Assembly: GCA_017405845.1 (NCBI GenBank)
Contig: JAFQZQ010000048.1
Span: 1 to 64,000, forward strand
Direction of reading: 5' to 3'
Length of the DNA stretch: 64,000 nucleotides
DNA from: Mogibacterium sp.
GTDB taxonomy: Bacteria > Bacillota > Clostridia > Peptostreptococcales > Anaerovoracaceae
This document shows, piece by piece, positions 38,497-41,896 of the stretch. The translations under genes were made by a program, and so were the position numbers. How positions within the stretch are numbered: the first letter of the stretch is position 1; the number at the start of each line of letters is the position of its first letter. Under the pieces are notes generated by a model. The model had not been told where the DNA came from and searched no databases. It was given only the letters and a program-made list of their open reading frames with translations.

Positions 38497-38524
38497 AATC
38501 GCAGGCTTGCTAGCCTGCGATTTT
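38497..38524. terminator. Bidirectional terminator overlapping the 3' end of the 706-residue protein gene
   Basis: AATCGCAGGCT and AGCCTGCGATTT pair across TGCT and are followed by TTTTG. The hairpin includes the minus-strand stop codon at 38512-38510. Confidence 0.75.
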
Positions 38525-40630
38525 GTATATGTCTACTTCATCGTTTGAGAAGCATTTTTCGTAATCTTTATTTGTCAGGTCTTCTATATCTGTGAACCGC
38601 TTGGATACTACTACGTAGTCGACTCCGAGCTCCCTGGCAACATCTCCGCGGTTTTCGTTGCCTGCGTCATACATCTCGTTGTTGGTGTGGAGCATCTGCC
38701 GCCGCAGTTCATACTCTCTGTCCGGGATGTTGTAGCCCGAGCCGGAGATGTAGGTGAAGCGGTTGGAGTAGACCGCGTAGAGGAAGAACCTGTTGTCCCA
38801 GCGGTTGTCGACGTGATATTTCTCAAGAGGCACGCTGTAGTATCTGTCAGTCGCGATGAGCGAGTCGAGCTCGGTGTTCTCGTTGAGCCACACCATTGCC
38901 TCGTACTCGTCGTTGCTTATGCTCGTGTACTTGTCAGGCGTTCTGTGGAGATTCGTTGCGCGGATATCCAGCCTCACGTTCTCCTTGAGGAAAGCGCCGA
39001 GGCTTACGGTAGTAGCGACCAGCATCACCGCCATTATGCTCAGCGTGATGCGGAGCGTATGCTTCGCAAGGGCTGAACTGCTTTGTTTGTCCTCGAGATC
39101 CTCGATGAACCACAGGGCTATCATCGGCGCGATGAATACCGTGACGAGACCGAAGTAGATCTGGCTGTGGCCGGAGTAGTTCATTATCATCATCAGAATG
39201 AATCCGACCATGGCAGCTGCGTAGACCAGCACGCGGGCAGGCTCGAATGGCTTGCGGCCGCTGATTACCAGCACCAGCTCGCGAACATAGCCAATGCAGA
39301 ACGGCACGAAGTATATGGTCAGAAGGAAGAGCACGAATACACCCAAAACCACCAACAGCCTTATAGGGGTAGGGATGCCCATGCCCTGCATCGCTGCGAT
39401 AAGCGGCTTCTTCCAGAACGCGATGTCTGCGATCTTTGCAAAGGCGAAGATCGACTGGCCTGTTGCGTTGGACACTCCGCGGCCGTTCAGGACCGTCTTG
39501 TAAATGAGCACGAATCCTGCCGATACCAGTGCGAGAGGGACAAGCGACTTGACCGGCACCTTGCGCATTATGATGCCGAGTATCATGGTGCCCCACATCG
39601 AGGCTACGATAACGGCTCCCATAGGACCCTTGATGCCTGTCGCCAGCATTATGAAGAACAGCAGAGCGATCAGCACCCTGAAGCGCTCCGGACGATTTTC
39701 GCTGAAAGCTTCATACCATTTCTTGAAGACGATCATGGTCATAAGTGCGACCGAAATGCCGTAGCCTGACGAGTTGTCGTTCTCGAGCGCAAACCTGAAG
39801 GCAATCGAAGTGCTTATGTTGCGTGTTATATAAATGTTGGAAAGCAGGAGCAACAGGCTGTATACGCCGGCGCGCTCCGACTTGGTGGACATCTCCCTGA
39901 AGAAGCTGTACGAGGACAGGCCGAAGATGCTTGCGGTCCAGATCGGACCGAAGGAGAGCATCATGGTATCGACCGGCACATCGAAGCATCTGACCGGTAT
40001 CGACAGAAGTATCTCACTGAAAATGTGGTATGTGATGAACTTGCCGTAGACCCACGGGCTCTGCATCGGATAGTCGTGAGACAGGGAGTTGATGAGACCC
40101 ATGTGGTAGGCCTTGTCGGAGTTCATGATCGTGAAGTCAGCCAGCTCAGGCGACATATAGCGGTACTGCACTCCGGAGAAGCAGTAGAAGAATACCAGCG
40201 CCATGAAGATGCAGAAAGCGACTGAAAGCTTGCTGAAGTGGAAGCGCTTTGCCACCAATGGTTTCTGCTTTTTTGTGTAGAGCATGAAGAGGTATAGCAG
40301 CGACAATACCGGGCCGGTCACATAAATGAGAAGATCGTTCGGTATGATATCAGATATGAAATAGACCAGCACCTGCAGACCCCATCCAGAGAAGAGGGCG
40401 AGCGCTATATCCGTTGAAAGATGATTGCCCTTGTATCCCGAGATGCCGACAAGCAGCAGTCCCGGCAGCATCACGTAGAACATCACGAAGGCTGCAAGTA
40501 TCACAGCGTGCCGTACAGAGGCACCGTAAACGAACACCGCCACGAGCCACATCGCTGCAACGGCCATGACACACAGAGCCTTGAGTATATTCTTGAATTT
40601 TGTGTTTGGATCAAATGTTTTCATATTCAT
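38510..40630 (-). CDS. Large polytopic membrane protein, GT-C-like
   Basis: This 706-residue protein has about 12-14 membrane segments and a soluble C-terminal ~150 residues containing NDEYEAMVWLNENTELDSLIATDRYYS and REYELRRQML. The extracytoplasmic loop after the fourth segment has MNSDKAYHMGLINSLSHDYP, an acidic loop in the position where GT-C glycosyltransferases keep catalytic acids. The layout fits enzymes that use polyprenyl-phosphate sugars outside the cell, but no exact family is recognised. No ribosome site precedes ATG 40630. The promoter lies so close that the mRNA appears leaderless. An alternative ATG at 40624 also lacks one. Confidence 0.75.
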   Translation of the reverse strand: MNMKTFDPNTKFKNILKALCVMAVAAMWLVAVFVYGASVRHAVILAAFVMFYVMLPGLLLVGISGYKGNHLSTDIALALFSGWGLQVLVYFISDIIPNDLLIYVTGPVLSLLYLFMLYTKKQKPLVAKRFHFSKLSVAFCIFMALVFFYCFSGVQYRYMSPELADFTIMNSDKAYHMGLINSLSHDYPMQSPWVYGKFITYHIFSEILLSIPVRCFDVPVDTMMLSFGPIWTASIFGLSSYSFFREMSTKSERAGVYSLLLLLSNIYITRNISTSIAFRFALENDNSSGYGISVALMTMIVFKKWYEAFSENRPERFRVLIALLFFIMLATGIKGPMGAVIVASMWGTMILGIIMRKVPVKSLVPLALVSAGFVLIYKTVLNGRGVSNATGQSIFAFAKIADIAFWKKPLIAAMQGMGIPTPIRLLVVLGVFVLFLLTIYFVPFCIGYVRELVLVISGRKPFEPARVLVYAAAMVGFILMMIMNYSGHSQIYFGLVTVFIAPMIALWFIEDLEDKQSSSALAKHTLRITLSIMAVMLVATTVSLGAFLKENVRLDIRATNLHRTPDKYTSISNDEYEAMVWLNENTELDSLIATDRYYSVPLEKYHVDNRWDNRFFLYAVYSNRFTYISGSGYNIPDREYELRRQMLHTNNEMYDAGNENRGDVARELGVDYVVVSKRFTDIEDLTNKDYEKCFSNDEVDIYKIAG

Positions 40631-40636
40631 ACAGTT

Positions 40637-40665
40637 ATATTACAAGGTAGCTAAAGCGAATTCAA
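40637..40665 (-). promoter_or_regulatory. Promoter giving a leaderless mRNA for the 706-residue protein
   Basis: On the minus strand TTGAAT (40665-40660), a 17-base spacer and TAATAT (40642-40637) put the start of transcription at 40630, the A of the start codon. Confidence 0.55.
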
Positions 40666-40666
40666 T

Positions 40667-40773
40667 AGCGGGGCTGACACACTCCTGAAGCGAGATGGTC
40701 CGAGGAGGAGCGATGAAGCGGCTTGTGCTTCGTGACGACGAGGCACGAGCGGAAGGAGTGTGTCAGCCCCGCT
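40667..40773. repeat. 107-bp palindromic element with perfect 20-bp arms
   Basis: The left arm 40667-40686 (AGCGGGGCTGACACACTCCT) is the exact reverse complement of the right arm 40754-40773. The 67-base spacer contains smaller repeats, including GAAGC..GCTTC. It sits precisely between the -35 boxes of two divergent promoters and explains most of the 243-base gap. It could be a mobile miniature element, a structured RNA or an operator; no target-site duplication is evident. Confidence 0.7.
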
Positions 40774-40776
40774 TAC

Positions 40777-40806
40777 TTGCATAGTATGGGCTATTTAACA
40801 TATAAT
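40777..40806 (+). promoter_or_regulatory. Promoter of the rfbB operon
   Basis: TTGCAT, an 18-base spacer and TATAAT lie 67 bases before ATG 40874, beginning three bases after the palindromic element. Confidence 0.6.
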
Positions 40807-40873: not shown

Positions 40874-41896
40874 ATGAAAAAGATACTTGTTACCGGCGCA
40901 GCCGGATTCATCGGAAGCAACTTTGTGTTTCACATGCTTAAAGCTCATCCTGACTACTATATAGTCGGGCTGGATGCTCTTACATACGCGGGCAATCTCG
41001 AGACTCTCGCGCCGGCGATCGATAACGAGCACTTCAAGTTCGTCAAGGCGGACATCACAGACGCGGAAGCGATCGACAAGCTCTTTGCAGAAGAGAAGTT
41101 TGACGTGGTCGTCAACTTTGCTGCAGAGTCACATGTAGACAGATCGATCGAGGATCCGGGTCTGTTTTTGCGCACCAACATCCTCGGCACACAGGTGCTG
41201 ATGGATGCGTCCATCAAGTATGGCGTAAAGAGGTTCCATCAGGTCGGAACCGATGAGGTATACGGAGACCTGCCTCTCGACAGGCCTGATCTCTTCTTCG
41301 TTGAGACCATGCCTCTCACAGCATCGAGCCCATACTCGGCATCTAAGGCTTCAGCAGACCTGCTGGCAATGGCATACCACCGCACCTACGGGCTGCCTGT
41401 CACGATCAGCAGATGCTCCAACAACTACGGACCTTATCAGTTCCCTGAGAAGCTGATCCCGCTCATGATCGCAAACGCGCAAGCCGACAAGGCGCTGCCT
41501 GTTTACGGCGAGGGACTGAACGTCAGAGACTGGCTCTATGTTGAGGACCATTGCAGGGCTATCGACCTCATCCTCGAGAACGGAAGAGTAGGCGAGGTCT
41601 ACAACATCGGCGGACACAACGAGAAGGCCAACATCGAAGTTGTTAAGATCATACTGAAGCAGCTGGGCAAGCCGGAGAGCCTCATCACATACGTCACGGA
41701 CCGCAAGGGCCACGACCAGAGATACGCCATCGATCCTACCAAGATCCACAACGAGCTGGGATGGCTGCCGGAGACGAAGTTTGAGGATGGAATAAAGAAG
41801 ACAATACAGTGGTATCTCGACAACGAGGACTGGTGGAAGAACATCATCAGCGGCGAATATCAGCAGTACTATGAGAAAATGTACGGCAACAGATAA
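40874..41896 (+). CDS. rfbB: dTDP-glucose 4,6-dehydratase
   Basis: This 340-residue short-chain dehydrogenase/reductase converts dTDP-glucose to dTDP-4-keto-6-deoxyglucose in the cytoplasm. It has the NAD loop GAAGFIG (residues 8-14), NFAAESHVDRSI, the catalytic TDE (126-128), Tyr154-x-x-x-Lys158 in SPYSASKAS, and the dTDP-binding RCSNNYGPYQFPEKLIPLMI. All match the RfbB/RmlB family and length. The next gene is a WecE-type aminotransferase, so the product probably goes to 4-amino-4,6-dideoxygalactose rather than rhamnose. The dTDP-glucose donor enzyme is encoded at 54225. Confidence 0.95.
   Translation: MKKILVTGAAGFIGSNFVFHMLKAHPDYYIVGLDALTYAGNLETLAPAIDNEHFKFVKADITDAEAIDKLFAEEKFDVVVNFAAESHVDRSIEDPGLFLRTNILGTQVLMDASIKYGVKRFHQVGTDEVYGDLPLDRPDLFFVETMPLTASSPYSASKASADLLAMAYHRTYGLPVTISRCSNNYGPYQFPEKLIPLMIANAQADKALPVYGEGLNVRDWLYVEDHCRAIDLILENGRVGEVYNIGGHNEKANIEVVKIILKQLGKPESLITYVTDRKGHDQRYAIDPTKIHNELGWLPETKFEDGIKKTIQWYLDNEDWWKNIISGEYQQYYEKMYGNR

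Follow-up and report, generated by a model that had tools for sequence, protein, structure and literature searches.

A dispersed hairpin repeat of Mogibacterium with site-specific, co-evolving arms, and its copy between two divergent promoters

Dispersed hairpin repeats are common in bacteria, and their mode of spread is often obscure. ERIC-like and other intergenic palindromic repeats, together with the prokaryotic MITEs (PMC10969869), are short, non-coding, dispersed, intergenic and hairpin-forming, often lie at the 3' ends of genes and occur in internally deleted versions, and in all these respects they resemble the family of repeats described here. The REP and REPIN units with their RAYT (Y1) transposases (PMC3116915, PMC3733652) share with this family that they are extragenic, hairpin-forming DNA units spreading without coding capacity; GTAG/CGTC end tags are a REP/REPIN feature. 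Template-switch hairpins, which arise through quasipalindrome correction, are similar in their perfect stems and in the coordinated multi-base changes on both arms; template switching has been published as both maker and keeper of perfect stems for RNA stems, and the mechanism has so far been inferred from RNA genes (PMC8794818). Finally, the Rickettsia palindromic elements, as they are cited in PMC10969869, and the coding palindromes of nematomorph mitochondria (PMC6649704) are palindromes that can include coding sequence.

The family that we describe is short, non-coding and dispersed, as a MITE is, but the fixed terminal inverted repeats of a prokaryotic MITE are lacking, with arms that differ even where the cores are 97.5% identical. 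In contrast to ERIC-like repeats and MITEs, these arms differ by site and co-vary locally. Compared with REP/REPIN units, the elements are longer, have fewer copies and are present independently of the Y1 domain: PF01797, the only domain searched, was found in 9 of the 22 genomes with the element and in 15 of the 25 others, which is no association, and four genomes with several copies (G009, G016, G022 and G044) have no match to it, these being incomplete drafts (G009 is 97% complete). The family thus fails two defining features that we tested, the fixed terminal repeats of MITEs and the Y1 association of REPINs. Unlike template-switch hairpins, the stems here surround a conserved repeated core, so that one element family marks many unrelated sites, and unlike the Rickettsia and nematomorph palindromes the family is intergenic and touches gene ends only, with some arms forming the last codons. 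Our verdict is that the known kind to which the family belongs is that of dispersed intergenic palindromic repeats, and that its unusual feature is its site-specific, co-evolving arms.

The copy from which we started lies in the window, i.e. the whole 64-kb stretch of DNA that was analysed, between two divergent genes. The features of the locus are as follows.

38510..40630, minus strand: leftward divergent gene, 706 aa, no Pfam match at E 0.001
40660..40665, minus strand: proposed -35 box of the leftward gene, ATTCAA (TTGAAT on the minus strand), assigned by sequence and conserved at the empty site of a relative
40667..40773, plus strand: whole palindromic element, 107 bp, type A, internally deleted, in the orientation 5'-GCGAGATGG...GAGCG-3'
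40667..40686, plus strand: left arm, 20 nt, AGCGGGGCTGACACACTCCT, site-specific and outside the repeated core; the arms of other copies differ
40687..40753, plus strand: core, 67 nt, conserved left end GCGAGATGGTCCGAGGAGGA joined to conserved right part GCGATGAAGCGGCTTGTGCTTCGTGACGACGAGGCACGAGCG
40721..40750, plus strand: inner 13-bp hairpin within the core, GCTTGTGCTTCGT-GACG-ACGAGGCACGAGC, from fold predictions
40754..40773, plus strand: right arm, 20 nt, AGGAGTGTGTCAGCCCCGCT, perfect reverse complement of the left arm, resembling the native right flank of the empty site in relative G012
40777..40806, plus strand: proposed -35/-10 promoter of the rightward gene, TTGCAT - 18 - TATAAT, assigned by sequence, its position conserved at the empty site
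40874..41896, plus strand: rightward divergent gene, 340 aa, extended-SDR sugar-nucleotide dehydratase (dTDP-glucose 4,6-dehydratase-like), with an ortholog in G012

An earlier note on this DNA had described perfect 20-bp arms around a 67-nt core, fitted exactly between two -35 boxes, and this geometry is confirmed: the arms are complementary at 20 of 20 positions over a total of 107 bp, and the element begins one base after the box at 40660-40665 and ends three bases before the box at 40777-40782. The expected number of perfect 20-bp arm pairs within 300 nt of each other is about 2 × 10-5 for 64 kb. The fold is strong for RNA (147-nt stretch, z = -9.5, 0 of 200 shuffles) and for DNA (40660-40782, z = -8.4, 0 of 200 shuffles), with the 13-bp hairpin as a second one inside the core. 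This copy does not have the form of an intrinsic terminator, with no T-run and with divergent neighbouring genes. If transcribed, it would by its sequence form a long hairpin RNA, as had been suggested, but both flanking genes point outward and therefore neither reads into it. The leftward gene apparently encodes a membrane protein. Both promoter assignments are weak by consensus (TTGCAT at 40777-40782 has 3 of 6 matches, with TATAAT at 40801-40806), and a promoter scan listed neither of them; they are supported by the conservation of both in position in an element-free relative.

This relative, G012 (L083), carries the rightward ortholog with 90% identity over 641 bp and the leftward gene with 75%, and has the same divergent promoters without the element, the -35 boxes being 27 bp apart rather than 111 bp as in the window. 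The idea that a mobile element brought its promoters with it is therefore rejected, since the orthologous element-free site already bears both. The 27-nt spacer between the boxes, AGCGCCGTCATGCCTGCTGCCCCTTAC, forms no stable hairpin (-2.6 kcal/mol over 45 nt). G012 may never have had the element, or it may have lost it. The right part of its spacer (CTGCCCC-TTACTTGC) resembles the right arm and flank of the window copy (CAGCCCCGCTTACTTGC), and nothing native in the spacer was matched to the window left arm beyond AGCG; the comparison suggests that the left arm could be an inverted copy of the right flank. No direct duplication of a target site is visible at the window locus, where relatives are too diverged for exact junctions.

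The proposal that the palindrome is a mobile element stood up in another respect, in that the core is repeated and dispersed, and single genomes have nearly identical copies of it at separate loci. Without its arms, the window core matches three other loci in its own genome, a draft in 52 contigs. BLAST with a 147-nt query at E 0.001 gave core matches in 19 of the 47 genus genomes, with identity reaching 94% over 54 nt (positions 45-98 of the query), and a covariance model of the inner core gave about 60 matches in 22 of the 47. The same model gave no matches in 276 sampled genomes of 91 other genera in the family, with stricter filters that could have missed weak ones. Those matching records that have a name were deposited as Mogibacterium sp. 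or uncultured Clostridiales, several of them from goat and sheep gut, and a loose-pattern scan of genome contigs gave mostly chance matches, with several genus members among them. Rfam, at gathering and relaxed thresholds, assigned neither the window copy nor full-length copies to a family; plasmid and phage collections held no match to the element, and neither of two core patterns had an exact counterpart in viral contigs. A single-copy, unconserved sequence, which the earlier note had named as evidence against its readings, describes the arms as far as they were searched (the BLAST query would not report a lone 20-nt arm match) and not the core, which has many copies. The palindrome is a copy of a genus-restricted, non-coding, strongly folded, dispersed hairpin repeat, with a core that is internally deleted. 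Copies of the family lie mostly just past stop codons, in both orientations.

Full-length elements of type A read arm, TGCAGCGAGATGGTCCGAGGAGGAACTGAAGCACACCG ... inner hairpin ... TGGAGGAGCGATGAAGCGG.TTGTGCTTCGTGACGACGAGGCACGAGCGAAA, complementary arm, and those of type B have the inner part in common with type A and different ends, GCGAACATTCCGCAGAAAG ... GAGGACGTTCGC. The window copy is of type A with its middle deleted between two GGAGGA repeats: relative to full-length copies about 85 nt are absent, with the junction at the GGAGGA repeat. Another deleted version occurs in G043 (L059/L142). In the shared core hairpin, 97% of cells pair as against 86.5% in shuffles, and double changes occur at 13 of 26 pairs, with 82 double-change cells versus 24.4 in shuffles; that this hairpin is kept by compensatory change is strongly supported. 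Its mismatches are 18 G-U versus 4 A-C, but 8 of the 18 G-U come from one pair. Type A cores resemble each other within a genome (0.887) as much as they do between orthologous loci (0.874), and pairs of nearly identical cores at separate loci within a genome support recent copying (97.5% for L060/L222 in G040, 97.7% for L036/L214 in G016).

A third, unrelated hairpin family, which we call type C, has a 145-nt core, GCGAGCGTTGCG...GGCGAG, and its own site-specific arms. In other species it is found at intergenic sites where types A and B also occur, at the L053 locus (G000 L446 and G017 L444) and at the L036 locus (G036 L450). The type A copy L036 of G016 (the same in G019 L038) has a type C remnant as its left flank, a nested insertion.

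We compared the arms of 47 copies, grouped into 25 loci by flanking sequence. The near-identical cores of G040 and G016 have arms that are unrelated between loci, which indicates that these cores did not bring their arms with them. Orthologous loci of different species have differing arms that still pair, and pairing within a copy exceeds pairing across species in 9 of 11 ortholog groups, with two ties and no reversal. Such an excess is the mark of coordinated change: had the arms of one ancestral palindrome decayed independently, the two kinds of pairing would be equally good. At a locus followed through seven species, double changes occur in 8 of 19 arm pairs, in 14 cells versus 4.2 when shuffled (0 of 500). 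Arm mismatches comprise 28 G-T and 42 A-C; the lack of a G-T excess argues against selection on RNA of the element's orientation and fits a process at the DNA level.

In one case an arm has a likely source. In G043 (L142), a 16-nt segment that takes in the last codons of a gene, GGCGCGGGCACAAATA, recurs inverted past the element, and the closely similar GGACGCGGACAC lies in the gene of element-free G026 that matches this neighbour; on this comparison, the arm at locus 1 of G043 is best read as a copied flank. Such an inverted copy of native flank is clear there and suggestive at the window, and it was not seen at L053 or at the SRP-RNA site, where the arms are unlike the native spacer of relatives. 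Elsewhere (L180 in G022, L183 in G009) the neighbouring gene ends within the arm of the element, which provides its final codons and stop (..NAPAE*).

To account for these observations, we propose, with somewhat more confidence than doubt, that a non-autonomous long-hairpin repeat was inserted between pre-existing promoters, and that its arms were made or kept matched on site by template switching. The core would spread with the help of a putative enzyme, and one copy would have been inserted into the 27-bp gap between two divergent promoters already in place; slippage between GGAGGA repeats would then have removed the middle of the window copy. After insertion, the folded core may bring its two flanks together, so that template switching during replication could use one flank as the template for a reverse-complementary copy on the other side, and the same process would first make locus-specific arms and later keep them matched. 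Within this wider conclusion of a mobile hairpin repeat, we regard the making of the arms by template switching as evenly balanced, because of the terminators found in element-free relatives at L042 and L064, the arms unlike native spacers and the similar arms at two loci. Tentatively, and against the balance of probability as we see it, the proposal may extend to a class of mobile hairpins without fixed ends, in which each insertion would build its own terminal inverted repeats by flank copying and keep them matched by repeated template switching, types A/B and C sharing the mechanism.

The main rival to arms made by template switching is that the core inserts into the loops of existing hairpins, mainly intrinsic terminators, in which case the arms would be host stems under selection for RNA pairing. 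We consider this doubtful, although several observations agree with it. Most copies lie directly after stop codons, in either orientation; T-rich tracts (at least 6 of 8) follow the arm in 23% of copies on the right and 15% on the left, compared to 7% of background; and at the L042 and L064 loci the place of the element is taken in an element-free relative by an ordinary intrinsic terminator, so that some arms may be old terminator stems. However, the window copy sits between divergent promoters where the empty site folds poorly, and at four further empty sites (upstream of the SRP RNA, locus 1, L214 and L049) there is no hairpin at the insertion point, intergenic ancestors being uncertain since most relatives are only 75-95% identical, and any empty site may reflect loss of the element. 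Family arms reach 20-26 perfect pairs, which is long for terminators, and their mismatches have no G-T preference over A-C.

It is improbable, in our estimation, that the arms belong to the element, travel with it and diverge fast after insertion under selection for pairing. The arms at the group-0 site and at locus 1 in G017 are alike (GGCAGAA..TCC) despite the different loci, and at the SRP site in G000 GC-rich arms stand in an AT-rich native spacer; given the first of these, some arm sequence may travel with the core. As the general rule this is contradicted by near-identical cores with unrelated arms in one genome and by the arm in G043 that contains coding sequence resembling an element-free gene.

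A functional divergent regulator or structured RNA of the window gene pair, the other reading offered at the outset as a control site acting on both genes, is very unlikely. Its attraction is the exact fit between the -35 boxes and the strong fold, but the only relative found with the gene pair has no element, copies of the core lie beside many unrelated genes, mostly at 3' ends, and there is neither an Rfam match nor a neighbouring gene that reads into the element. Most likely the window copy is a passive insertion with little or no dedicated function. It adds about 85 bp to the distance between the two promoters and might adopt a cruciform shape. The case is a warning that a palindrome which fits neatly between promoters can have been inserted late rather than serve as a regulatory site. 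Chance or an assembly artefact, for which only the draft state of the window genome in 52 contigs could speak, is refuted by relatives, as independent genomes have the same core with different arms and the chance expectation of the arms is minute, so that we give it next to no weight.

What the family offers is a set of natural replicates, with one core carrying different arms at many sites and different cores at one site. From such replicates it could be learned whether template switching lets a DNA hairpin rewrite the sequence beside it.

In about 1.04 Mb of genus DNA that we fetched there are 15 perfect inverted repeats (arms of at least 15 bp, spacers of 30-300 nt), of which 12 cluster with the family described here (L386 by a composite site) and two are type C; the share of 12 in 15 is not a genome-wide estimate, because the DNA was fetched around such elements. 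An interrupted palindrome at L310:7397-7574 has 18-bp arms, GCGCAGGCAGCATACCCT, and an unrelated 142-nt core. At the L036 locus, there are stand-alone REP-like palindromes in L451/L452, those of G042 (GAGTCAGGGGACGTACCCGCTGACTC...) and G000 (GTGACAGCGGGGACGGTTCTTCTGTCAC). A candidate for an autonomous larger element in G011, with copies 2.1 kb apart, turned out to be a duplicated rpmE segment. Fragments of the 3' part of rpmE (ribosomal protein L31) are duplicated beside rpmE in several genomes of the genus (L071, L147, L159, L161 and L163).
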